A DNA stretch of 50,875 nt from Nitrospira sp. LK70 (GTDB lineage Bacteria > Nitrospirota > Nitrospiria > Nitrospirales > Nitrospiraceae), in the NCBI GenBank assembly GCA_011090425.1, contig PHGD01000017.1:1-50875 (forward strand), in the 5' to 3' direction. The position numbers were made by a program, and so were the translations under genes. Positions 29,875 through 43,692 of the stretch are shown here, piece after piece. Under the pieces are notes generated by a model. It worked only from the letters and a program-made list of their open reading frames with translations, searched no databases and was not told the origin of the DNA. How positions within the stretch are numbered: position 1 is the first letter of the stretch; each line of letters starts with the position of its first letter.

Positions 29875-30258
29875 ATGACCGGGACCGAAGCTCTTCTTGA
29901 ATATCTGACGAAGTTTTTTCCGGTCTTTCTCTTTATCGTGGTAACGCTGGTTTTTGGAGTAGTGACCTTGCTCGTCAGTTATTTTGTGCAGCCCAGGTAT
30001 CCGGAACCGGAAAAATTATCGACCTACGAGTGTGGAGCCGAACCATTTTCCGACGCCCGTATGCCGTTTCCGGTCAGGTATTACATTTTTGCGATGTTGT
30101 TCGTCATCTTCGACATTGAAGTGATCTTCCTCTATCCCTGGGCCGTGGTATTCACCAAGATCGGAGTAATTGGGTTGATTGAAATGATGATTTTTATAGG
30201 ACTGTTCATTGTGGCTTACGTGTATGCCTGGCGAAAAGGCGCGCTGGAGTGGGACTGA
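29875..30258 (+). CDS. nuoA: Complex I subunit NuoA
   Basis: Small membrane subunit of the proton-pumping NADH-quinone oxidoreductase, next to the quinone channel. It has 127 residues and three membrane spans. The signature [19 protein letters not shown] (about residues 44-62) is the family's conserved Cys loop, followed by FYPWAVVF-like [12 protein letters not shown]. First gene of the nuo cluster; nuoB starts 7 bp downstream. No strong ribosome site is seen (GAGAGCAG, 9 nt away). Confidence 0.96.
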
Positions 30259-30265
30259 GGGTTGT

Positions 30266-30793
30266 ATGGGACTAATCCAGCTGGGACGGCAGGAGAAAGA
30301 CGGAGCTCCGGACGTCATCACGGGGTCTCTCGAAAAAGCCGTCAACTGGGCGAGGAAGGGCTCTCTCTGGCCGATGACCTTTGGACTGGCCTGCTGCGCT
30401 ATCGAGATGATGGCCGCCGTTTCTTCCCGGTACGATATGGATCGGTTCGGGGCAGGAGTGTTTCGTGGTTCACCGCGACAGTCGGATTTGATGATCGTCG
30501 CCGGAACCGTATGTCGACGCATGGCACCGGTGATTCGAAAAATTTACGACCAAATGCCCGAACCCAAGTACGTGATTGCGATGGGGTCCTGTGCCACATC
30601 AGGGAACATCTATGACAGTTACAGTGTCGTGCAGGGAGTCGACCGATTTATTCCCGTTGACATTTATGTGCCCGGTTGCCCTCCGACTCCGGAGGCCCTC
30701 TTGGACGGCATTCTAAAACTCCAGGAGCGCATCATGCAAAAGCGCGTGTTTGTGACCCAACCGGAGCAGGTCAAGGCAAGTCTGAAGGTGTGA
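30266..30793 (+). CDS. nuoB: Complex I subunit NuoB
   Basis: Peripheral-arm subunit holding cluster N2, the last iron-sulfur centre before quinone. 175 residues from the ATG at 30266; the longer GTG frame beginning inside nuoA is rejected. All four N2 ligands are visible: tandem C43-C44 in [10 protein letters not shown]109 in AMGSCATSG and C138 in [12 protein letters not shown]. It is spaced 9 bp from nuoC. Confidence 0.97.
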
Positions 30794-30802
30794 CGCGTCG
30801 CT

Positions 30803-31300
30803 ATGCATCCACTGCTCCAGCGAGTTCAGCAGACGTTTTCGGTCGGAATTACCGGACTGGTTGAATGGCGCGGTGACGCGGCGGTGACCGTCTCCCGAGA
30901 CAAACTCCGTGAAGTTGCTCTGTTTCTGCGAAACGATCCTGGGATGGATTTCGATTATATCGTTCATGTGAGCTCCGTGGATTGGCCTGACGACGAAGAG
31001 CGATTCGAAGTCGTGTGGGAGATCTACTCGATTAGGAAGCGACATCGCCTTCGACTCAAGACGCGGGTGCCTGAATCGGATTGTGTCGTGGATTCCTTGA
31101 CGGATCTATGGAAAGGTGCCGATTTCATGGAACGTGAAGTCTTCGACATGATGGGTATCCGGTTTCGGAATCATCCCGATCTTCGTAGGATTTTAATGCC
31201 AGATGATTATGCGGAAGGTTACCCGTTGCGTAAGGATTTTCCACTCCGTGGAAAGGGCTGGCGGGACACGTTTGATTTTCTGGATGAAGTGCCTCGATAG
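30803..31300 (+). CDS. nuoC: Complex I subunit NuoC
   Basis: Peripheral-arm subunit (30-kDa type) that supports NuoD. 165 residues; it is a separate gene here, not fused to NuoD as in E. coli. The family signature is seen in WKGADFMEREVFDMMGIRF (about 101-119) and in HPDLRRILMPDDY, followed by GYPLRKDFPLRG. NuoD begins 14 bp after its stop. Confidence 0.96.
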   Translation: MHPLLQRVQQTFSVGITGLVEWRGDAAVTVSRDKLREVALFLRNDPGMDFDYIVHVSSVDWPDDEERFEVVWEIYSIRKRHRLRLKTRVPESDCVVDSLTDLWKGADFMEREVFDMMGIRFRNHPDLRRILMPDDYAEGYPLRKDFPLRGKGWRDTFDFLDEVPR

Positions 31301-31314
31301 GAGCCTCTACCGGC

Positions 31315-32559
31315 ATGGCATTCGAAGACCAAAGAACCACCGTCTATAAGATCAACCCGGAGCATCCGGAAAGCGAGACGCTTCCGACCCTGCGAACCGA
31401 GGAACTCCTGCTCAACATGGGGCCTCAACACCCTAGCACCCACGGGGTGCTGAAGGTGATTCTAGAGCTGGAAGGAGAGCGGTTGGTGAAATCTACGCCG
31501 GTAATGGGGTACCTCCACCGAGGAGTAGAAAAGCTTGCCGAGGACGGCACGTATCATCAGTTCATTCCTCATACGGACCGGCTCGACTATGTCTGTGCGA
31601 TGTACAACAACTTTGCCTATTGCCGTGCTGTTGAAAAACTCCTGAATTTACAAGTTCCAGAGCGGGCGGAATACCTCAGGACAATCGTGGCGGAGGTTCA
31701 GCGGATCATTGGACACCAATTTTGGCTGAGCGCCCAGGCCCTTGACATCGGGGCCATGACCGTCTTTTTTTATTGTTTTCGAGATCGGGAAATCCTGCTC
31801 GACTGGTTCGATGAGCTGTGCGGTGCTCGGCTCACGACGAGCTGGTACCGAATCGGCGGGGTTGAGCGGGACTTGACTTCCTCATTGATCGACAAGCTCA
31901 AACAGTTCTTAGACTATTTCCCGCCGAAGATCGACGAATATCAGGTGTTTCTCGAGAGAAACCGCATTTGGCTTGGGCGCACCAAGGGAGTCGCCGTGAT
32001 CTCCGCCGAAGACGCGGTCAGCTTTGGACTGAGTGGACCGGTTCTTCGCGGGTCCGGTGTGGACTATGATCTTCGTAAGTACGAGCCCTATAGCGCCTAT
32101 CCAAAGTGCGAGTTCAACGTTCCGGTTGGGAAAAACGGCGATACCTATGATCGGTATTGGATTCGGGTGATGGAGCTCTACGAAAGCGTCAAGATCATTC
32201 GCCAATGTCTGGAGCAGATGCAGGACGGGCCCATCATGGCGGATGTTCCCAGCGTGACGCTGCCGCCGAAAGAGCGGGTCTTCACGAACCTGGAGGCAAT
32301 GATCCAACAGTTCAAACTCTTCTCGCAGGGGTTTGATGCTCCGCCAGGAGAAATCTACTGTGGCACTGAGGCCCACAAGGGAGAATTGGGTTTCTACATC
32401 GTCAGTACCGGGGGAGGGAAGCCTTATCGACTGAAGATTCGCGCCCCTTCATTTGTGCACATGGGCGCGTTCGATCATATGGCCAGAGGATATATGATCT
32501 CTGATGCCTGTACCATCTTCGGTACGTACGATATCGTGATGGGTGAATGCGATCGCTAG
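31315..32559 (+). CDS. nuoD: Complex I subunit NuoD
   Basis: 49-kDa-type subunit that forms the quinone site with NuoB. 414 residues. The N-terminal signature NMGPQHPSTHGVLKVILELE (about 38-57) carries the His of the quinone pocket; later motifs include GYLHRGVEKLAE and the C-terminal FGTYDIVMGECDR ending as in most family members. 81 bp of degenerate spacer separates it from nuoG. Confidence 0.97.
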   Translation: MAFEDQRTTVYKINPEHPESETLPTLRTEELLLNMGPQHPSTHGVLKVILELEGERLVKSTPVMGYLHRGVEKLAEDGTYHQFIPHTDRLDYVCAMYNNFAYCRAVEKLLNLQVPERAEYLRTIVAEVQRIIGHQFWLSAQALDIGAMTVFFYCFRDREILLDWFDELCGARLTTSWYRIGGVERDLTSSLIDKLKQFLDYFPPKIDEYQVFLERNRIWLGRTKGVAVISAEDAVSFGLSGPVLRGSGVDYDLRKYEPYSAYPKCEFNVPVGKNGDTYDRYWIRVMELYESVKIIRQCLEQMQDGPIMADVPSVTLPPKERVFTNLEAMIQQFKLFSQGFDAPPGEIYCGTEAHKGELGFYIVSTGGGKPYRLKIRAPSFVHMGAFDHMARGYMISDACTIFGTYDIVMGECDR

Positions 32560-32640
32560 GAAACGTGAATCGTGAACCGTTACATAACCGCTCCATCTCT
32601 TGCGATTAGCGAGTAACGTTGAACGAATAACGAGGCAACA
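32560..32640. repeat. Degenerate short-repeat spacer between nuoD and nuoG
   Basis: An imperfect series built on CGTGAAT/CGTGAAC and GTAACG/ATAACG, with no coding potential. It is unusually long for a gap within this tightly packed operon. The same CGTGAATCGTG string occurs near 5183. Function unknown. Confidence 0.4.
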
Positions 32641-35334
32641 ATGGGCCTGAAGCCGGCTACTAATCCAGACGTTGAAGGGGCAACGATCGAATTGAGCATC
32701 GACGGGAAATCCGTCACGGCGAGGGACGGGGTGTCGTTGTACGACGTTATCGCCATGACAGGCAAGATCATCCCGGCCATGTGCTATCACTACACCTTCG
32801 ACCCGTTCGGCTCTTGTGGCATGTGTCTCGTCATGCAAGAGGGGAAGAAAGCTCCGGTTCGGTCCTGCACCGCCAAGGCAGCGGCGGGAATGGTGATCCG
32901 TACAGAGGGAGAGGATCTCTTTCTCGCGCGAAAGAAGGCCGTCGAGAAACACCTGTCGGTTCATCCGCTCGACTGCCCGGTGTGCGATGCGGACGGACAT
33001 TGTGAACTACAAGATATGGCCTTCCAGCATGGCGTGACAAATCTGGCCAATGCCAAGCAGAAATTTATCCCGGAAGATACGCGTAGTCTTGTACTCGACT
33101 TCAACATGAATCGTTGCATCGCCTGTGCGGAATGCATCAATGTTTGCAAGGATGTGTTGATGATCGATGCCTTGCAGTTCATGAAGAAGGGGGGGTTCAA
33201 CCAGGTTGTGGCCAAGGGCGACCTCGCCCTTGATTGTGAATTCTGCGGTGATTGTCTGGCAGTTTGTCCGGTCGGCGCCATCACGAACAAATTTTCCAAG
33301 TATCTGTATAAGCCGTGGCAGATGAAGAAGACGACGACGACCTGCAACTACTGCGGAGACGGTTGCCAACTCTACTTGGAAACGAAAGATGAAGAGGTGG
33401 TCCGAGTCACCTCCCCGTTATCCTGGAAGAACAAGTGGGGCGACCGATCGGAAACCGCCAAGGGACACGGCGGGCTCTGCGTACGTGGCCGTTTTGGGTT
33501 CGAATATCTCGACAGTAAGAGCCGCCTTACGCAGCCCCTTGTCCGCGAAGGGGGTCGGCTGGTGCAAAAGCCTTGGCTGGAAACGATGCACCTGCTCGTA
33601 GACCAATTGACCGAAATTAAGGAGAAATCCGGTGCCGATGCCATCGGTGGCCTTGTGACGGCCCGCTGCACGAACGAAGAGCTGTATTTGTTTCAGAAGC
33701 TCATGCGCACTGGTTTTGGAACCAACCAGCTCGATAGTAGCGCCCGCTACGGCCATATGAACTTTGTCCTGGCGTCCAAACGAGCCACGGGGCTGGGGAG
33801 AATGCCGAACGATTGGGAAGATCTGACGAAAGCAAAAGCCATCATGTTGTTCGGCTCCAATATTACCGAGACGAACCCCTTGACCGCCGTCCGAATCAAA
33901 GAAGCCATACGGGTCTACAAGGCTCAGGTGATGACGTTCGACAGCGCCATTACGAATATTGCAAAGCTCGCATCGCACCCGTTTTTGATCAAGCCCGGCA
34001 CAGAGGGAGCAGTGATCGATGGGTTGGTCAAGACGACCATCGAGCAGGATTTGGTGGATGAAGAGGTTGTTGAGAAACACCCCCGAGCGTTTGATGCGCT
34101 CAAAAGCGCGGTGGCGAATCTTTCGTTGGAGCATCTAGCGGCTCAGACCGGCGTTCCCATCGAAGCCTTCCGAGAAGTTGCGGCCATTTTTGCCGAATCG
34201 CCGAGGTCGATCATCCTGTGTGCGGAAGGGATTGTCAGACGAACGAACGGCTATCAGAACGTCTTAAAACTGATGGATCTCGCCTGGATTACCGGCAAGC
34301 TCGGGCGAGCGGGTTGTGGTGTGAACACCGTGACGGAGGAGCCGAATGAACAAGGGGCCGTTGATATGGGCGCAGCACCTGAGTTTCTCCCAGGTCAGGC
34401 TCGGTTTGATGATCCAGCAGTTCGAGACCGGTTCGCCAAAGCATGGGAAACGTCACTCCCTCCTGTCGGATCGGGGGCACATCTCATCGAAATCTTGAAG
34501 CGATGCAAGAGTGGACGGATTAAAGCCCTGTACATTCTGGGGGAAAACCCGCTCGCCACCTTGCCGGCTTCGATGGAGGTGCGAGCTGCTCTTGAACGAC
34601 TCGAACTGTTAGTCGTGCAAGATCCCTTCTTGACTGAGACGGGAAAGTTGGCTCATTTTGTGCTCCCCGCTTGCACCTATGCGGAGAAGGACGGCACCTT
34701 TACAAATCTTGAAGGTCGTGTGCTTCGCGTTCGTCAGGCGATGGATCCGCTTGGAGAGAGCCTGCCGGACTGGCACATCATGACAGCGTTGGCGAATGCC
34801 ATGGGATGCCGATGGGAATACCAATCGGCGAATGATATTCAAGCTGAGATTATGAAGCTTTTGCCCGGATACTATAATCTCGGACAACCGCGTAAAGTCG
34901 TGCCCGTCCCTGACCAGTATTTGTCCAACGACTACGCAGCCGAGGTCAAGGCTCGTTATCAACAGGGCCCACCATCTGGAGAGAATCCGCGTCCCTTTTC
35001 TTTATTGATGGGACAGTTATTGGTGCATTCGGGGAAATTGTCGACGCAAGCGCCGGGGCTTATGAAGATCGCTCCGAACACAGGGAAGCTGCGGATGAAC
35101 ATAGGGGACATGGAGCGTCTTGGATTGCAAGACGGTGTGAAGGTGCGTTTGACCTCCGATCGTGGTTCTCTTCAGCTCGCGGTCCAGGCGGATCAGTCCA
35201 TCGCCCCAGGCACCTGTTTTTTTCCTGAGCATTTTAATGAACCTCCTGTGAAGGACTTAATGCCGGTGTCGGTGGATGCCGCGACCGGTGTCCCGTCGTT
35301 TAAACAGACCTGGGTCAGTGTTGAACAGGCGTAA
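32641..35334 (+). CDS. nuoG: Complex I subunit NuoG (molybdopterin-oxidoreductase family)
   Basis: Large peripheral subunit, 897 residues. Cluster ligands in order: 2Fe-2S from C48, C59, C62 and C76; His108 plus C112, C115 and C121 for the N5-type 4Fe-4S; CIACAECINVC (159-169) and CEFCGDCLAVC (199-209) for two 4Fe-4S; and CNYCGDGC (235-242) for the extra N7-type centre. The molybdopterin-fold domain follows, with the C-terminal dinucleotide-binding domain from about 790. NuoE and NuoF, which bring electrons from NADH to NuoG, are not in the cluster, so its electron partner here is unknown. The pair of ferredoxin-like clusters recalls formate-dehydrogenase alpha subunits. Confidence 0.95.
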   Translation: MGLKPATNPDVEGATIELSIDGKSVTARDGVSLYDVIAMTGKIIPAMCYHYTFDPFGSCGMCLVMQEGKKAPVRSCTAKAAAGMVIRTEGEDLFLARKKAVEKHLSVHPLDCPVCDADGHCELQDMAFQHGVTNLANAKQKFIPEDTRSLVLDFNMNRCIACAECINVCKDVLMIDALQFMKKGGFNQVVAKGDLALDCEFCGDCLAVCPVGAITNKFSKYLYKPWQMKKTTTTCNYCGDGCQLYLETKDEEVVRVTSPLSWKNKWGDRSETAKGHGGLCVRGRFGFEYLDSKSRLTQPLVREGGRLVQKPWLETMHLLVDQLTEIKEKSGADAIGGLVTARCTNEELYLFQKLMRTGFGTNQLDSSARYGHMNFVLASKRATGLGRMPNDWEDLTKAKAIMLFGSNITETNPLTAVRIKEAIRVYKAQVMTFDSAITNIAKLASHPFLIKPGTEGAVIDGLVKTTIEQDLVDEEVVEKHPRAFDALKSAVANLSLEHLAAQTGVPIEAFREVAAIFAESPRSIILCAEGIVRRTNGYQNVLKLMDLAWITGKLGRAGCGVNTVTEEPNEQGAVDMGAAPEFLPGQARFDDPAVRDRFAKAWETSLPPVGSGAHLIEILKRCKSGRIKALYILGENPLATLPASMEVRAALERLELLVVQDPFLTETGKLAHFVLPACTYAEKDGTFTNLEGRVLRVRQAMDPLGESLPDWHIMTALANAMGCRWEYQSANDIQAEIMKLLPGYYNLGQPRKVVPVPDQYLSNDYAAEVKARYQQGPPSGENPRPFSLLMGQLLVHSGKLSTQAPGLMKIAPNTGKLRMNIGDMERLGLQDGVKVRLTSDRGSLQLAVQADQSIAPGTCFFPEHFNEPPVKDLMPVSVDAATGVPSFKQTWVSVEQA

Positions 35335-35367
35335 GCGAATATTGAGGGCCGTGACGAGGAGCCTCCG

Positions 35368-35955
35368 ATGAGTGTCGCCGCGTTGACAAAAAAGATCCTT
35401 CAGGCTGCGTTGTTCTACGAGATCGTGGACGCGATGAAGGTCACGTTTCGACATATGCTTCATCGCCCGATGACGTTTCAGTATCCGCGGGAACAACGAA
35501 CGATCCCAGATACGCATCGTGGTGCGCTTGGCTTGCTTCGCTATGATGATGGGCGAGAACGGTGCGTCGGCTGCGATCTTTGCGAAGCCGCTTGTCCTTC
35601 GCATTGCATCAAGGTGATCAGTGCCGAGGATCCGGCCCGACCGCTCCAGCGCTACGCCAGTGAATTTTATATCGATATCACAAAATGCGTCTTCTGCGGC
35701 TATTGTGTCGAAGCATGTCCGGTGAATGCATTGGCGATGACCAAGATGTACGAATACTCGACCCACGACAAACGCAGTCTCCTGTTCGACAAGAAGCGGC
35801 TCTACGATATCGGCGAACGCCATCTTGATGACGGGAAGAAATATTTGTATGCGCACAACCAGGAGAAGAATGTCGCGCAAAGCCGCGAGTATCGCTACTA
35901 TTTTCCGCAGTCGGTACAGAAGTCGACCCAACCGCCTCCCAAACATCTGAGCTGA
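35368..35955 (+). CDS. nuoI: Complex I subunit NuoI
   Basis: Ferredoxin-like subunit carrying clusters N6a and N6b between NuoG and NuoB. 195 residues. Ligands: CVGCDLCEAAC (66-76) with C117-like closing, and CVFCGYCVEAC (107-117). A GAGGAG ribosome site precedes the ATG. In most operons nuoH lies immediately before nuoI; here only 33 bp separate nuoG and nuoI, so nuoH is absent from this position. Confidence 0.96.
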   Translation: MSVAALTKKILQAALFYEIVDAMKVTFRHMLHRPMTFQYPREQRTIPDTHRGALGLLRYDDGRERCVGCDLCEAACPSHCIKVISAEDPARPLQRYASEFYIDITKCVFCGYCVEACPVNALAMTKMYEYSTHDKRSLLFDKKRLYDIGERHLDDGKKYLYAHNQEKNVAQSREYRYYFPQSVQKSTQPPPKHLS

Positions 35956-35964
35956 GCCGCACCC

Positions 35965-36492
35965 ATGACCGGACTGTTTTTTGTTTATTTTGCATTGATC
36001 AGTATTGCCGCCGGTGTTATGACGGTGGCATTGCGTCACCCGGTTCACTGCGCGCTCTCGCTCCTCGTGTTGCTCTTGCACGTGTCCGGACTATTCATTC
36101 TTCTGAACGCGGAGTTCTTGTGGGCCGTGCAGGTCATCGTCTACGTGGGGGCCATTCTGGTCCTATACCTCTTCGTGCTGATGTTGCTGAATCTCAAGAC
36201 GGATGAACGTTATTTTCACCCATCGGCTCCGTATATTCTCGGGCCTGCTGTCTTGGGAGCCGGCTACGTTTTGTACCTCCTCTTGCGGTCTCCATTTTCT
36301 GGGGCAAAGGGGGATGCTCCGACCACTGCGGTGCTGCAAGACGGCGATACCTATGCCGTGGGCATCAAGATGTTCAGCGACCATCTCTTGCAGTTTGAGA
36401 TCGTCGGCATCTTTCTGCTCGGAGCTATTATCGGCGCGATCGTCCTGGCCAAGGCTCCGAAGCCGCTGGAAAGGGATCGAGAGCGGTTATGA
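35965..36492 (+). CDS. nuoJ: Complex I subunit NuoJ
   Basis: Membrane-arm subunit of five spans, 175 residues. Family motifs ALRHPVHCALSLLVLLLHV (about 21-39) and LWAVQVIVYVGAILVLYLFV (about 52-71) include the pi-bulge helix involved in coupling. Its stop overlaps the nuoK start by four bases (ATGA). Confidence 0.95.
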   Translation: MTGLFFVYFALISIAAGVMTVALRHPVHCALSLLVLLLHVSGLFILLNAEFLWAVQVIVYVGAILVLYLFVLMLLNLKTDERYFHPSAPYILGPAVLGAGYVLYLLLRSPFSGAKGDAPTTAVLQDGDTYAVGIKMFSDHLLQFEIVGIFLLGAIIGAIVLAKAPKPLERDRERL

Positions 36493-36791
36493 TTCCTCTG
36501 TCTGCCTACACAGCCGTCAGCGCGGTCCTTTTTATGACGGGGCTCTTGGGTGTGCTTGTCAGACGAAACTTCATCATCGTGCTGATGTCGGTTGAAATCA
36601 TGATGAATGCGGCCAACATCAATTTGGTCGCCTTCTCACACTATTTGGAATCGATGGCGGGACAACTTGTGGCGCTATTCATCATCGCCATCGCGGCCGG
36701 CGAAGCGGCCGTTGGTTTGGCCATCATCATCGTCGTGTTCAGAGGCAAAATTTCCACGAATGTGGATGAAATGAACCTCTTGAAGTGGTAG
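36489..36791 (+). CDS. nuoK: Complex I subunit NuoK
   Basis: Small membrane subunit of three spans, 100 residues, matching family length. The channel glutamate lies in the second span within MSVEIMMNAANINLVAF (about 35), and the second in AAGEAAVGLAIIIVVF (about 70). It is translationally coupled to nuoJ. A 135-bp spacer precedes nuoL. Confidence 0.96.
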   Translation: MIPLSAYTAVSAVLFMTGLLGVLVRRNFIIVLMSVEIMMNAANINLVAFSHYLESMAGQLVALFIIAIAAGEAAVGLAIIIVVFRGKISTNVDEMNLLKW

Positions 36792-36926: not shown

Positions 36927-38903
36927 GTGTCCCGCTTGACTGATCTCCTCATCAAATTGATTCCCGTTTTCCCACTGCTCGCGGTTCTCGCGAACGGACT
37001 GCTCGGACACCGCTACTCTCATGGAATGGCCCATCGATTGGCTTGGGGGTCAGTCGGCCTCTCGTTTCTCTGTACGATCGGCGTATTTACCGATGTCATG
37101 CGTACGGGAGCTTCCCATGAGGTGGTTGTCTATCAGTGGATTTTCGGCGGAGATCTCACGATCAATTTGGCGTACCTGGTGGATTCTCTGACCTGCGCTT
37201 GGTTGCTGGTCGTCACCGGTGTCGGGTTCCTCATTCACGTCTATTCCGTGGGTTATATGCACGGAGAAACCGGATTTACGCGCTTCTTCACCTACATGAA
37301 TCTTTTCATGGTCTCCATGTTGCTTCTTGTGATGGGGAACAACTATCTCGTGCTCTTCATCGGTTGGGAAGGTGTCGGGCTCTGTTCCTATCTCTTGATC
37401 GGTTATTACTATGACAAGGTGTCGGCGGCCAAGGCAGCATCCAAGGCGTTCGTCGTCAACAGGATCGGCGATGCGGGATTTCTCGTCGCGATATTTCTTG
37501 TCTTCAGCAACTTTAAGACGCTCGACTATACCAAGGTCTTTGCCCAGGTCGGGCAATTGTCTCCAGACATGGCCACGGCCATCGCTCTGTGCCTTTTCAT
37601 CGGTGCGGTTGGGAAGTCGGCGCAGCTTCCGCTCCATACATGGTTGCCCGATGCGATGGAAGGTCCGACGCCGGTGAGTGCGTTGATCCATGCGGCGACC
37701 ATGGTCACGGCCGGTGTCTACATGGTCGTCCGTAATCACGCGATCTTTGATCTCTCACCCTTCGCCATGTCGACGGTGGCGCTGGTCGGCGGAGGCACCG
37801 CCCTGTTTGCGGCGACCATCGGACTCGTCCAAACCGACATCAAACGCGTCCTGGCCTATTCGACGGTGAGCCAGCTCGGATATATGTTTCTCGGTTGTGG
37901 GATCGGCGCCTATACGGCGTCCGTTTTTCATGTCATGACCCATGCGTTCTTCAAAGCGTTGTTGTTCTTGGCGGCAGGGTCGGTAATCCATGCATTATCG
38001 GGGGAGCAGGACATCCGGAAGATGGGCGGACTGAGCAGCCGAATTCCTTGGACCCATCGCCTGTTTCTGGTCGGCACCATTGCGATCGCGGGCCTCCCTC
38101 CCTTAGCGGGATTCTGGAGCAAAGACGAAATTATGGCCCATGCCTTTACCACTCATCACTATCTCCTGTACAGCATGGCGGCGTTCGGCGCATTGATGAC
38201 CTCTTTTTATATGTTCCGGTTGACCTATCTGACGTTCTACGGTTCTTCTCGGATGGATCCTCATACGGCTGAGCATGTGCACGAATCTCCGATGGTGATG
38301 GTCGTCCCCCTGATGGTCCTTGGCTTCCTTTCCATCGTGGGTGGGTTGATCTTGGGGTTTCCTCCAGAGCATGGCTGGCTGCATGGATTTTTGGGGCCCG
38401 TCGTCGGAGTTGGGAGCCTGCATGAGACAGGTGCCGGCATGGCGTTGCTGTTGATGAGCATTGCGATCGTCATTGCCTTGGCGGGATGGGGGCTGGCGCA
38501 TTTTCTCTACGGCCTGAGCCCCGCGACAGCAGACCGATGGGCGAACAAATTCTCCGGGACGTATCGGCTTCTGCTGAACAAGTACTACGTCGACGAACTG
38601 TACGACCTGATGTTCGTGGAGCCGCTCAAACGCCTGGGGGCCATGCTTGACTGGTTCGATCGCACGATCATAGACGGCATCGTGCGGGGCGTTGGTTGGC
38701 TCGCTGATTGGGGTTCTGCGGGATCCACGTGGGTCGAGAAGTATATTATCTACGGCGGCCTGAACGTGATCGGATATAGCAACCATCTCGCGGCTCGCGA
38801 AGGTCGGAAGATGCAGAGCGGAATGGTGCATCATTATGCCGCCATCATCGTCGCGGGGATCTTTCTTCTCGTTCTTGTCGTTCAATTGTTTGCCCAGATG
38901 TAG
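36927..38903 (+). CDS. nuoL: Complex I antiporter-like subunit NuoL
   Basis: Proton-pumping membrane subunit at the distal end of the arm, 658 residues. The start is a GTG; an ATG 13 bases upstream is out of frame. Channel residues are visible: FIGWEGVGLCSYLLIGYYY (glutamate of TM5), GAVGKSAQLPLHTWLPDAM (lysine of TM7) and GPTPVSALIHAATMVTAG. The C-terminus has the amphipathic lateral-helix region (NKYYVDELYDLMFVEPLK) and a final span. In 2M-type complexes the lateral helix would have to span an extra NuoM; its exact length was not measured. Confidence 0.95.
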   Translation: MSRLTDLLIKLIPVFPLLAVLANGLLGHRYSHGMAHRLAWGSVGLSFLCTIGVFTDVMRTGASHEVVVYQWIFGGDLTINLAYLVDSLTCAWLLVVTGVGFLIHVYSVGYMHGETGFTRFFTYMNLFMVSMLLLVMGNNYLVLFIGWEGVGLCSYLLIGYYYDKVSAAKAASKAFVVNRIGDAGFLVAIFLVFSNFKTLDYTKVFAQVGQLSPDMATAIALCLFIGAVGKSAQLPLHTWLPDAMEGPTPVSALIHAATMVTAGVYMVVRNHAIFDLSPFAMSTVALVGGGTALFAATIGLVQTDIKRVLAYSTVSQLGYMFLGCGIGAYTASVFHVMTHAFFKALLFLAAGSVIHALSGEQDIRKMGGLSSRIPWTHRLFLVGTIAIAGLPPLAGFWSKDEIMAHAFTTHHYLLYSMAAFGALMTSFYMFRLTYLTFYGSSRMDPHTAEHVHESPMVMVVPLMVLGFLSIVGGLILGFPPEHGWLHGFLGPVVGVGSLHETGAGMALLLMSIAIVIALAGWGLAHFLYGLSPATADRWANKFSGTYRLLLNKYYVDELYDLMFVEPLKRLGAMLDWFDRTIIDGIVRGVGWLADWGSAGSTWVEKYIIYGGLNVIGYSNHLAAREGRKMQSGMVHHYAAIIVAGIFLLVLVVQLFAQM

Positions 38904-38928: not shown

Positions 38929-40488
38929 ATGCTCGAAGAACTCACGGCCGGATTTCCGATTCTGTCCTCCATCCTATTTCTCCCGCTGGTCGGGGCTGCT
39001 GTGCTCTGGCTGCTCGACGACGAGGATATGGTCCGGACCTCAACCCTCACCATTGCGCTAGTGGAGTTTGCACTTTCCGTATTCGTCCTGCTGCGCTTCG
39101 TGCCGGAGTCAGCCGCGATGCAGTTCACAGAGCATGTCCGATGGATTCCTGCGTTAGGCATCAGCTATCACCTGGCTGTCGATGGAATCAGCGTATTGTT
39201 CGTGGGGCTCACGGCTTTCTTGACGGTCCTGGTGGTGGTCTACTCGTGGGATACGATTCGACATCAAGTCAAACTGTACATGATGTGCCTGTTGGCGCTC
39301 GAGACCACGACGATGGGCGTCTTCGTGTCCCTGGATTTGATCCTGTTTTTCGTGTTCTGGGAGTTGATGCTGATACCCAGCTATTTCCTGATCAAGCTGT
39401 GGGGAGGGGGAGCCGAACGTCATTACGCCGCGCTGAAGTTCGTTGTGTATACGCTCTTGGGCAGCGTCTTCATGCTGGTGGGCATCTCGTTGCTGAACAT
39501 CAATTTCCATCAGTGGGCCTCCCTGCACCACCCCGATCAACTCTATTCGTTTGATCTGCTCGAACTCATGACGGTACCGGTTCCGGTCTCTCAGCAACTC
39601 GTCATTTTTTGGCTGATGTTCCTAGGATTTGCGTTCAAGGCTCCGGTGTTTCCTTTCCATACCTGGCTGCCTGATGCGTTGTTGGAGGGTCCGATCGGAA
39701 TGGCCGTGGTCTTGGCGGGATTGAAAGTGGGCACGTTCGGTTTTATCCGCTTCAGCATCCCCTTGCTCCCCGATGCGTCGAAAAGCGAGACGGTGGTCAT
39801 GGTGATGGTCGTGCTTGGCCTCTGCGCAATTCTCTACGGAGCCTGGATGGCCTTGGTTCAAGCCGATTTTCGTCGCTTGCTGGCCTACAGCAGCATCAGC
39901 CACTTGGGCTTTGTCGTCGTGGGGTTGTTTGCCTTGAACTATCAAGGTCTGCAAGGCAGCCTGCTCACGATGATCAATCTGGGGTTCAGCACGGCGGGGC
40001 TCTTCTTTATCGCCGGCTTTCTCTACGCTCGGCAGCAAACAACTCAGTTGTCTGCGTTCGGTGGGATGGCGAAACAAGTGCCTCGACTCGCAACATTCTT
40101 GCTCATTATCGGGCTGGCGTCGATCGGACTGCCCGGCACGAACGGCTTTGTGGGGGAGTTTCTCATTCTCCTGGGAGCATTCGAGGCCAGGTGGTGGTTC
40201 GGCGGTATCGCGGTGCTCGGGGTTATTTTCGGTGCCGCGTATTTTCTATGGTACTACGAGCGTTCGATGATGGGTCCGCTCGGCAATGCGGTGAAAGGTG
40301 CGATGAGCGACCTGCAGCTTCGTGAGATGGTCATTGCGGTCTCACTTTCGGTCATGATTTTCTGGATCGGGCTCTATCCCTCGCCGTTTTTACGAATCAT
40401 GAACGGATCTGTTCAAGCGCTCGTTGATCGCCTCCATCACGAGAAGGCGGCAGCGCTCGACAGGAGTCCGGTGAGACAAGGATATTAG
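38929..40488 (+). CDS. nuoM: Complex I antiporter-like subunit NuoM, copy 1
   Basis: 519 residues, normal NuoM length. Proton channel residues are intact: E145 in FFVFWELMLIP, K237 in LGFAFKAPVFPFHTWLPDA, K266 in VLAGLKVGTFGFIR and E410 in GFVGEFLIL. A histidine conserved near TM11 in E. coli NuoM (IAHG) is Leu here (INLG). Followed 4 bp later by a second NuoM. Two consecutive NuoM genes are the signature of the 2M complex I described for Nitrospira. Confidence 0.95.
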   Translation: MLEELTAGFPILSSILFLPLVGAAVLWLLDDEDMVRTSTLTIALVEFALSVFVLLRFVPESAAMQFTEHVRWIPALGISYHLAVDGISVLFVGLTAFLTVLVVVYSWDTIRHQVKLYMMCLLALETTTMGVFVSLDLILFFVFWELMLIPSYFLIKLWGGGAERHYAALKFVVYTLLGSVFMLVGISLLNINFHQWASLHHPDQLYSFDLLELMTVPVPVSQQLVIFWLMFLGFAFKAPVFPFHTWLPDALLEGPIGMAVVLAGLKVGTFGFIRFSIPLLPDASKSETVVMVMVVLGLCAILYGAWMALVQADFRRLLAYSSISHLGFVVVGLFALNYQGLQGSLLTMINLGFSTAGLFFIAGFLYARQQTTQLSAFGGMAKQVPRLATFLLIIGLASIGLPGTNGFVGEFLILLGAFEARWWFGGIAVLGVIFGAAYFLWYYERSMMGPLGNAVKGAMSDLQLREMVIAVSLSVMIFWIGLYPSPFLRIMNGSVQALVDRLHHEKAAALDRSPVRQGY

Positions 40489-40492
40489 ATCA

Positions 40493-42199
40493 ATGGGAGA
40501 GTACGCACTACTGTATATCCTCTTCGCTCCGTTCGCTGGAGCCTTGGGGTTAATTTTTGTGTCAAATCGACAGCCGCTGCTTGTTCGAAGCATAGCGGCA
40601 AGCGCAGCCTTTGTGTCGCTGATCACCTCGCTCTACATTTTTTATGCGTATGATTCAATCGCAGGCGGATTTCAGTTTGTTCAAAAGTTTGAATGGTCGA
40701 GGCAACTCGGCATCGCATTATATCTGGGCGTCGATGGGGTCGGCACTCCGCTCGTGCTTGCCTCTTCGATTTTGCTGTTTGCCGGCATCTTCGTATCGTG
40801 GCACATCAAGGATCGCACGAAGGAGTTCTACATCTGGTTGTTGATCCTGGCGGCTGCCACGATCGGTGTCTTCATGTCCCTGGACCTGTTCTTTCTCTAT
40901 TTCTTCTACGAGATGTCCGTCATCCCGATGTATTTGCTGTTGGGGATGTGGGGCAGCCACACGAAGAAGTATTTGGAGATGACCGACCCCGAAGGTCTGA
41001 AACGACGGGACTCGGTCGGATTCATCCTGAACTTCGGATCGAACAGCAAAGAATATGCGGCGATGAAACTTGTGCTCTTCCTGTCCGCGTTCGCCGTCAT
41101 TGCGCTCATGGGCATCTTGCTCATCTATAAATATTCCGGGCTGAACACTTTCGATATCCTGGTACTCCGTGAGCAGGCCAATCTCATGAATATTCCGGCG
41201 CTCGGCACGACGTTGGACAAGATCATCTGGGTCTTGGTCTTCTTCGGCTTTGCGTCGATCGCTCCGCTGTGGCCGTTGCACTCGTGGTCCCCGGTCGGCC
41301 ATGCGGCTGCGCCGGCCGCAACCAGCATGCTTCATGCCGGTGTCCTCATGAAGCTCGGACACTTCTCCATTATGCGGGTGGCCTTTGAAATTCTCCCGGA
41401 GACGACCAGGGAATTGATGCCGATCGCCGCCGTTCTTTGCATGTTCAGCATCATCTACGGCGGTTTCGTGGCGTTTTATGCCAAGGACACCAAGTACGTG
41501 ATCGGCTATTCCAGTTCCAGTCACATGGGCTATGTGTTCCTTGGGATGGCAGCCTTGAATTACATCAGCTTAAGCGGCGCGGTCATCTACATGTTTGCCC
41601 ACGCCATGGCGACCGGCATGCTCTTCGCGATGGCCGGGTGGGTTTACGACCAGACCCATTCACGCGACATCCCTTCGTTGGGCGGCCTGGTGAACAAGAT
41701 GCCCTTCATCTCTGCCTGTTTCATCGTGGCCTGTATGGCGTCGGTCGGAATGCCCGGTACGGTGAATTTTATCGCGGAAATTATGATCATCGTCGGAAGC
41801 TGGAATAAGTATCCTCTCCAAGTGATCGTGGCCATGCTGGGCATCGTCTTAACCCTGGCGTATCTGTTCAAAATGATGCGCGGCCTTTTCTATGGTCCGA
41901 TGAACCAAAAGTATAGCCACGCGCACGATGCGATCTCGACGGTCGACCGGCTGCCTCTATTGATTATGATTTCGGTCAGTATCGGCTTCGGGATTTTCCC
42001 GATGCATTTATATGATGTCGTTCGTTCTGGAGTGGACCCGTTGGTCGCGAGGATTACGCGCGTGGTTCCGGTGGCGGAAACCAATGAGGGGTTAGGGGTG
42101 AATGGGAAGTCGATGCCACTAGAAAGGACTGCTGCCCCGTTGGCTGCGCACAAGGCCATATCCGATCCACCGCAGGGCTCACGAGAGGAGCGCGAATGA
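40493..42199 (+). CDS. nuoM: Complex I antiporter-like subunit NuoM, copy 2 (divergent)
   Basis: 568 residues, about 50 longer than copy 1. TM5 glutamate E140 (FFYEMSVIP), TM8-type K287 (AGVLMKLG), E429 (NFIAEIMII) and the IAHG-type His (MFAHAMATG) are present. The TM7 lysine is replaced by Ile256 (GFASIAPLWPLHSWSPVGH), and the neighbouring HTWLPDAH is changed too. About 25-30 extra residues, mostly polar, are inserted between TM5 and TM6 (about 155-186). A polar C-terminal tail also adds length. It is not simply a duplicate of copy 1 but a distinct subfamily, as expected for 2M complexes. Its stop overlaps the nuoN start (ATGA). Confidence 0.95.
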   Translation: MGEYALLYILFAPFAGALGLIFVSNRQPLLVRSIAASAAFVSLITSLYIFYAYDSIAGGFQFVQKFEWSRQLGIALYLGVDGVGTPLVLASSILLFAGIFVSWHIKDRTKEFYIWLLILAAATIGVFMSLDLFFLYFFYEMSVIPMYLLLGMWGSHTKKYLEMTDPEGLKRRDSVGFILNFGSNSKEYAAMKLVLFLSAFAVIALMGILLIYKYSGLNTFDILVLREQANLMNIPALGTTLDKIIWVLVFFGFASIAPLWPLHSWSPVGHAAAPAATSMLHAGVLMKLGHFSIMRVAFEILPETTRELMPIAAVLCMFSIIYGGFVAFYAKDTKYVIGYSSSSHMGYVFLGMAALNYISLSGAVIYMFAHAMATGMLFAMAGWVYDQTHSRDIPSLGGLVNKMPFISACFIVACMASVGMPGTVNFIAEIMIIVGSWNKYPLQVIVAMLGIVLTLAYLFKMMRGLFYGPMNQKYSHAHDAISTVDRLPLLIMISVSIGFGIFPMHLYDVVRSGVDPLVARITRVVPVAETNEGLGVNGKSMPLERTAAPLAAHKAISDPPQGSREERE

Positions 42200-43692
42200 C
42201 GTTTTCGCTCAACATGACCTTCTCCGATCTTCTGCTCTTATTACCGGAGATCTTCCTAACCTGCTGGCTTTGTGTGGTGCTCATCGTCGATTTTTCGTTT
42301 CCGCGCTTTCCCAAGGAGCGACTGGCTTATTTCAGTGTCGCAGGTCTTGTGATCACACTCGGCTGTTTGGGGTGGTTTGACCTCAATCATATTTCCGGCA
42401 CGCTCTTCGGCAATATGTTCGTGCTGGATCGCATGGCGATCTTTTTCAAGATCTTTATCCTTGGAGCCACGATACTCGTCATCCTCGCATCAATCGAGTA
42501 TGTTAATCGTTTCACTCTTTTCAGAGGGGAGTATTATTGTCTGGTCGTCATGGCAGCACTCGGCATGATGTTCATGACGTCCGCTAACGATCTGCTGTCC
42601 CTCTTCGTTAGCTTGGAATTCGCAACGCTTGGTTTCTACATTTTAGTGTCTTATCTACGAGATGATTTGGCCTCAAACGAAGGCGGACTCAAATTTTTTA
42701 TCCTCGGTGTCTTTGCCGCAGGCTTACTGGCCTATGGGATCAGCCTGGTCTATGGTGAAACCGGTAAGCTTGTCTTTTCGGAAATGGCCTCCGCCCAGGC
42801 AACACCCGGTTTGATCATCGGGTTTCTGCTGATCTTCGCCTCTCTTGGATTTAAAATCGGGGCCGTTCCATTCCACTCATGGATTCCCGATACCTACCAT
42901 GGCGCCCCGACACCTGTGACGACCTTTTTGTCGATCGCTCCAAAAGCTGCGGCCTTCGCGATCTTGCTCCGCCTTTTCCTCGTGGCGCTGGCTACGTTCA
43001 AGCCTCTCTGGGTGACCCTCTTGGTAGCGGTATCCATCCTGTCGATGACCTATGGCAATATCGTGGCGATTGCCCAACGCAACATCAAACGGTTGCTCGC
43101 CTATTCAGGCATTGCCCAAGTCGGGAATGTGTTGATCGGCCTCGCGGCCGGCACCAAGATGGGAAGCGATGCCATTATGTTTTATCTTCTGGCGTACCTG
43201 TTCGCCAATATCGGCGCCTTCGCCGTCGTGATCGCGGTCAGCCAGGCTATTGGACGAGATGAAATCGAGGATTACCGAGGCCTAAACAGACGATCGCCGT
43301 TTCTAGCGTTCGCCATGCTGCTGTTCCTTCTGTCCCTGGCTGGTGTGCCGCCCCTCGCGGGGTTCATCGGCAAGCTTTATATTTTCGTGGCGGCCATCCA
43401 CGAAGGGCTCTATACTTTGATCGCGGTCGGGTTGATCAACATTGTGATCTCGATGTACTATTACCTCATCATTGTGAAGCAGATGTACATCAATGAGCCG
43501 GTAGATCCCTCTCCTATCGGAATTTCGAGTCCGATGAAGGTGGTGATCTATGTCGGTTTAGCCGGAACTTTGGTGATCGGCATTTACCCGCAACCATTCA
43601 CAGACTGGGTGGTCAGCGCAACCGTCATGTTTTCGAATGTTGTCGGTCCTTCGGCTACTGTGATTCCTCCAGGTTCCGCCCTGGGTGGTTAG
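42196..43692 (+). CDS. nuoN: Complex I antiporter-like subunit NuoN
   Basis: 498 residues. The channel lysine of TM7 is seen in LGFKIGAVPFHSWIPDTYHGAP, the TM5 glutamate region in LLSLFVSLEFATLGFY, and the C-terminal half has SIAPKAAAFAILLRLF. It overlaps nuoM copy 2 by four bases and closes the cluster. No clear terminator follows. Confidence 0.96.
   Translation: MTFSLNMTFSDLLLLLPEIFLTCWLCVVLIVDFSFPRFPKERLAYFSVAGLVITLGCLGWFDLNHISGTLFGNMFVLDRMAIFFKIFILGATILVILASIEYVNRFTLFRGEYYCLVVMAALGMMFMTSANDLLSLFVSLEFATLGFYILVSYLRDDLASNEGGLKFFILGVFAAGLLAYGISLVYGETGKLVFSEMASAQATPGLIIGFLLIFASLGFKIGAVPFHSWIPDTYHGAPTPVTTFLSIAPKAAAFAILLRLFLVALATFKPLWVTLLVAVSILSMTYGNIVAIAQRNIKRLLAYSGIAQVGNVLIGLAAGTKMGSDAIMFYLLAYLFANIGAFAVVIAVSQAIGRDEIEDYRGLNRRSPFLAFAMLLFLLSLAGVPPLAGFIGKLYIFVAAIHEGLYTLIAVGLINIVISMYYYLIIVKQMYINEPVDPSPIGISSPMKVVIYVGLAGTLVIGIYPQPFTDWVVSATVMFSNVVGPSATVIPPGSALGG

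Follow-up and report, generated by a model that had tools for sequence, protein, structure and literature searches.

The closest described system is the 2M complex I of clade 3 (Chadwick et al. 2018), which, according to the accessible parts of the literature, contains two NuoM subunits and a lengthened NuoL and has been proposed to drive reverse electron flow to ferredoxin (PMC6606698, PMC9040806). Expression of the 2M complex above the median level was reported for N. moscoviensis (PMC6606698). 2M complexes are cited as pumping an extra proton through the extra subunit, and current mechanisms of complex I regard the TM7 Lys-Glu pair of the antiporter-like subunits as a switch. In canonical NuoM, the TM7 lysine pairs with the TM5 glutamate; in P. 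denitrificans, catalysis is lost upon the exchange K232Q and likewise upon L242A, a change of the gate leucine alone (PMC9802314). A literature search for a structure, a stoichiometry or an isolated-subunit assay of a 2M complex yielded no record.

The window, i.e. the whole analysed stretch of 50,875 nucleotides from Nitrospira sp. LK70 (contig PHGD01000017.1), contains a gene cluster with the order nuoA-B-C-D-G-I-J-K-L-M1-M2-N, comprising the following features:

29875..36791, + strand: remainder of the 2M cluster, nuoA, B, C, D, G, I, J and K
36927..38903, + strand: nuoL, 658 aa; C-terminal lateral-helix region with an insertion of ~29 residues relative to E. coli NuoL, all channel residues present
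38929..40488, + strand: nuoM1 (M1), 519 aa
40493..42199, + strand: nuoM2 (M2), second NuoM of the 2M complex I cluster, intact ORF of 568 aa
40967..41041, + strand: additional TM5-TM6 loop segment of M2 (approximately residues 159-183), opposite a gap in E. coli NuoM; pLDDT below 50 at residues 154-185
42196..43692, + strand: nuoN, 498 aa; every key lysine present, including the terminal Lys393 (43372-43374)

The genes nuoH, nuoE and nuoF were not found in this nuo cluster, and the four genes of the genome that belong to the NuoH family (PF00146) are all located on other contigs. An enlarged NuoG is also listed for clade 3; with 897 aa, NuoG of this cluster is similar in length to the E. coli ORF (910 aa). 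The second NuoM, the lengthened lateral helix of NuoL, the cluster without nuoH, nuoE and nuoF and the Nitrospira host are features given for clade 3 in the accessible descriptions, and the cluster represents the clade-3 2M complex I already known from Nitrospira. M2 matched the NuoM profile TIGR01972 (NDH_I_M) with 408.8 bits, which is above the curated cut-off of 263.8, as well as PF00361. Close M2 homologs were detected in 109 of the 295 genomes sampled from the phylum Nitrospirota.

An alignment of 152 M2 sequences, 130 of which are distinct and whose pairwise identity extends down to 52%, was used to trace the channel residues. Their positions in the window and their E. coli counterparts, assigned by pairwise alignment, are as follows:

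40910..40912, + strand: Glu140, TM5 ion-pair glutamate (E. coli E144), in 151 of 152 with one gap; kept though the lysine partner is missing
41258..41260, + strand: codon ATC, Ile256, at the TM7 lysine position (E. coli K234), Ile in 152 of 152; predicted TM7 break at residues 255-265
41288..41290, + strand: Ser266 at the N-side gate leucine (E. coli L244, P. denitrificans L242), Ser in 152 of 152
41300..41302, + strand: His270, N-side uptake histidine (E. coli H248), 146 His and 6 Tyr
41333..41335, + strand: His281, subtype-specific TM8 histidine (E. coli L259), in 152 of 152
41351..41353, + strand: Lys287, central TM8 lysine (E. coli K265), in 152 of 152
41522..41524, + strand: His344, bridging histidine (E. 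coli H322), in 152 of 152
41600..41602, + strand: His370, TM11 histidine (E. coli H348), 146 His and 6 Asp
41777..41779, + strand: Glu429, terminal TM12 glutamate (E. coli E407), in 151 of 152 with one gap

As described in the original prediction, M2 reads GFASIAP where M1 reads GFAFKAP, the following HTWLPDAH is changed to HSWSPVGH, and E140, K287 and E429 are retained. The alignment with E. coli NuoM is free of gaps from F253 to K287 and places Ile256 directly on K234. In the same clusters, the TM7 lysine was present in all sequences of M1 (150/150), NuoN (143/143) and NuoL (111/111), and 16 of the 18 PF00361 proteins of the genome carry it, the exceptions being M2 and a divergent protein of 438 aa. 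It was likewise found in all 20 other NuoM proteins of Nitrospirota. The occurrence of isoleucine at the TM7 site of M2 is far beyond chance. The dN/dS ratio of M2 ranged from 0.036 to 0.081, comparable to or below the values of L, M1 and N, and M2 is under strong purifying selection.

Among the residues that define a canonical NuoM channel, the TM5 glutamate, the TM8 lysine, the bridging histidine and the TM12 glutamate are present in M2 and the TM7 lysine is absent. H263 (E. coli H241) is also retained, and the aspartate of the LPDAH motif is replaced by valine in all 152 sequences. All remaining residues of the proton wire are conserved in M2. A predicted model of M2, obtained with an alignment including the paralogues M1, N and L, reached a pLDDT of 74.7 and a pTM of 0.81; with an alignment of close M2 rows alone (at least 82% identity) the pLDDT was only 36.5. 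The former model matched bacterial NuoM chains of complex I with VIA Z values of 50.5-54.1, and superposition on NuoM/ND4 chains over ~490 residues gave Z values of 52.6 for P. denitrificans, 52.7 for E. coli and 54.1 for the mycobacterial chain.

The TM5-TM6 loop segment of M2, roughly 20-25 residues long, is absent from both E. coli and Bacteroides NuoM. Its conserved letters (RDS, N180) suggest a possible partner or role. In the M2 proteins of the five-pump loci (L133-L138), Lys286 stands beside Lys287, His270 is replaced by Tyr and the TM11 histidine by Asp, which amounts to a second group of channel changes within this subtype.

The best relative of M2 in the plasmid collection was NuoM of Bacteroides finegoldii (35.9% identity), which is the sole NuoM of its cluster. 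This protein carries Leu223 at the site of the TM7 lysine, S233 in place of the gate leucine and the TM8 histidine H248 in the motif SMLHAGVLMKLG. A maximum-likelihood tree computed from 62 rows placed M2 together with the Bacteroides NuoM in one group with support values of 100/97, the Bacteroides side consisting of two sequences from the plasmid collection, which is the one source of Lys-less NuoM outside Nitrospirota in this analysis. M1 was joined first by the alphaproteobacterial NuoM proteins (99/97) and next by those of the E. coli type (94/84). A tandem duplication of nuoM1, by which M1 and M2 would be sister groups, was rejected, as M2 is placed with Bacteroides NuoM apart from M1. 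A scan of viral contigs with the Bacteroides NuoM as query gave no match.

The phrase that M2 "has lost" the lysine therefore has to be revised: M2 did not arise by decay of an M1 copy but belongs to a separate NuoM lineage in common with Bacteroides, whose NuoM is also Lys-less. Since M2 groups with this Lys-less protein and the 20 other NuoM proteins of Nitrospirota keep the lysine, the Lys-less state is a property of an old NuoM subtype and not a loss in a fresh duplicate. The complex I of Bacteroidetes is a headless form of 11 subunits without the NADH module (PMC6560451), and the 2M cluster likewise contains neither nuoE nor nuoF. The Bacteroidetes NuoM resembles M2 in the replaced TM7 lysine, the serine at the gate leucine, the TM8 motif SMLHAGVLMKLG and the common clade; unlike M2, it has no second NuoM beside it in the cluster and no TM5-TM6 insertion. 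Moreover, two of the three antiporter-like subunits carry the lysine in the Bacteroides complex, compared with three Lys-bearing subunits in the 2M complex.

Other natural replacements of the TM7 lysine have been described. HycC of the E. coli formate hydrogenlyase carries leucine (L208) at this site (PMC5061711), which was confirmed in this analysis; it differs from M2 in that it is the single antiporter-like subunit of a hydrogenase, and point mutants of HycC had no effect there. In MbsH, the lysine is reportedly replaced by glutamate (PMC7684303). The second MrpD-like subunit found in the "green" complex I of rhizobia and in the Ca. Manganitrophaceae five-pump complex (PMC9040806) shares with M2 both the surplus character and the replaced lysine, which is Asn in the rhizobial and Nitrospirota four-pump complexes and Cys in two of them. 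Unlike M2, it represents a separate family (NF009310) in which the gate leucine is nearly always kept and the terminal residue is Lys instead of Glu. Four-pump MrpD-type complex I clusters were observed in many families of Nitrospirota and not in rhizobia alone (L191, L248-L264, L269-L277). MrpDb is likewise encoded in Mrp-type antiporter clusters, and one member from these has retained the lysine (locus L267).

The distribution of the TM7 lysine over enlarged clusters revealed a recurrent pattern. It is present in L, M1 and N of the 2M clusters, with Ile in M2; in MrpDa, M and N of the complete four-pump MrpD-type clusters (n=22), with Asn or Cys in MrpDb; and in MrpDa, M1 and N of the complete five-pump clusters (n=4), with Asn in MrpDb and Ile in M2. 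Each complete enlarged cluster examined thus encodes exactly three TM7 lysines and surplus subunits without it, a count that covers two independent surplus families and, among 2M complexes, those of Nitrospirota. The 2M complex itself is known; as far as shown by the accessible literature, what is new is the fixed absence of the lysine from the extra subunit, together with the three-switch pattern, the founding 2018 paper, which may mention the substitution, being set aside; the same holds for the non-sister origin of M2 and M1 and for the likeness to Bacteroides NuoM. A speculative generalization, which we regard as doubtful, is that complex I keeps only three Glu-Lys switches and recruits surplus modules from Lys-less families that are passive or gated by a neighbour, so that the predicted fifth and sixth protons per cycle need not exist.

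With respect to function, the original prediction called the TM7 lysine central to proton transfer, and mutagenesis of canonical NuoM supports that it is essential; simulations, on the other hand, place the buried Glu-Lys ion pair ~14 Å off the proton path and indicate that opening of the pair lowers the barrier (PMC11496545). Its loss would therefore remove the switch and not the route. The exchange E123Q opens the pair and leads to faster proton conduction (PMC11496545), and removal of the gate leucine (L214A) mimics the open state with open-like hydration (PMC13220270). In M2, two replacements of a type that opens the module in engineered variants thus occur together, in an otherwise complete wire.

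The prediction had left the choice between a modified route and no pumping at all. We favour, with a probability of about 0.5, that M2, as a member of a naturally TM7-Lys-less NuoM subtype, functions as an antiporter-like subunit and transfers protons without an ion-pair switch of its own. Without the TM7 lysine, no Glu-Lys switch would be formed within M2, and Glu140 would either carry no charge or find its partner in the adjacent subunit, namely in the terminal Lys393 of NuoN. Judging by the gene order L-M1-M2-N, the subunits are probably arranged likewise in the membrane; M2 would then lie beside NuoN, and Lys393, which is invariant in these clusters, could take the role of the partner for Glu140, with M2 being gated by its neighbour. 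A comparable connection was computed for Yarrowia, where three water molecules connect the TM12 lysine of NuoN with the TM5 glutamate of NuoM at a barrier of ~3.5 kcal/mol (PMC10266447). With the gate leucine also gone, the N-side entry is predicted to hold more water and to be protonated more readily, as seen for the engineered gate mutants, and the proton path would proceed via His270/His281, Lys287, His344/His370 and Glu429.

Since either K232Q or L242A alone abolishes canonical catalysis, M2, in which both positions are changed, might also be dead as a pump. The main rival to a proton-transferring M2 is accordingly a structural spacer or insulator that lengthens the membrane arm without pumping, the lysine of the ion pair and the gate leucine being gone. 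It fits the constant number of three Lys-bearing subunits in the complete enlarged clusters examined, and the purifying selection on M2 may also stem from a purely structural function. However, a spacer has no need for the membrane-buried invariant residues Glu140, Lys287, His344 and Glu429, the same subtype serves as the sole NuoM in Bacteroides, and blocking one subunit of intact complex I stops the whole enzyme instead of reducing the number of protons (PMC9802314). We therefore consider the spacer clearly less probable than proton transfer through M2.

Somewhat less probable still is a restored ion pair, in which another base of M2 fills the vacated site. The candidates are His281 and the TM6 lysine Lys192, which are both invariant, and Lys286 of six divergent loci. 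Yet Lys192 is shared by every L, M and N subunit that was checked, and thus provides no compensation; His281 is located on TM8, less than two turns before the central lysine, and probably matches the N-side-input histidine of NuoL and not the TM7 site; and Lys286 is restricted to 6 of the 152 M2 sequences, the others having Met. The idea that M2 derives from M1 by decay or sequencing error, which has nothing in its favour beyond the adjacency of the two NuoM genes, can be dismissed, as can the sequence error named in the prediction as a potential refutation, by the isoleucine in 152 of 152 sequences (130 distinct), the intact ORFs, the low dN/dS and the clade apart from M1.

The invariant absence of the lysine in M2, repeated in the unrelated MrpD-like surplus subunit, provides a natural variant for testing whether pumping needs the ion pair, and it also allows one to ask whether more subunits mean more protons.

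The two NuoM copies had further been said to differ at opposite points of the pathway. In this locus, M1 indeed keeps the TM7 lysine (Lys237, 39637-39639) and carries Leu351 (39979-39981) at the TM11 histidine (E. coli H348), which is present in M2. M1 additionally shows Leu251 in place of the N-side LPDAH histidine and a deletion of two residues just before the TM8 lysine. The change of the TM11 histidine to Leu was found in 140 of the 150 M1 sequences, and the loss of the LPDAH histidine and the two-residue deletion in most loci. The differences at separate places are thus real, but a fixed complementarity of M1 and M2 was rejected, because seven divergent loci encode M1 proteins that retain the LPDAH histidine and are without the His-to-Leu change and without the indel, M2 itself has Asp at the TM11 histidine in six of these seven, and the isoleucine of M2 is universal. 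In P. denitrificans, H246F at the LPDAH histidine abolishes catalysis, whereas H346Q at the TM11 histidine had no significant effect in membranes (PMC9802314). NuoM1 of Nitrospirales lacks two canonical channel histidines (LPDAH, TM11), the first being the site at which H246F is detrimental. In NuoN of these clusters, Gln308 occupies the position of E. coli His305 in all 143 sequences.
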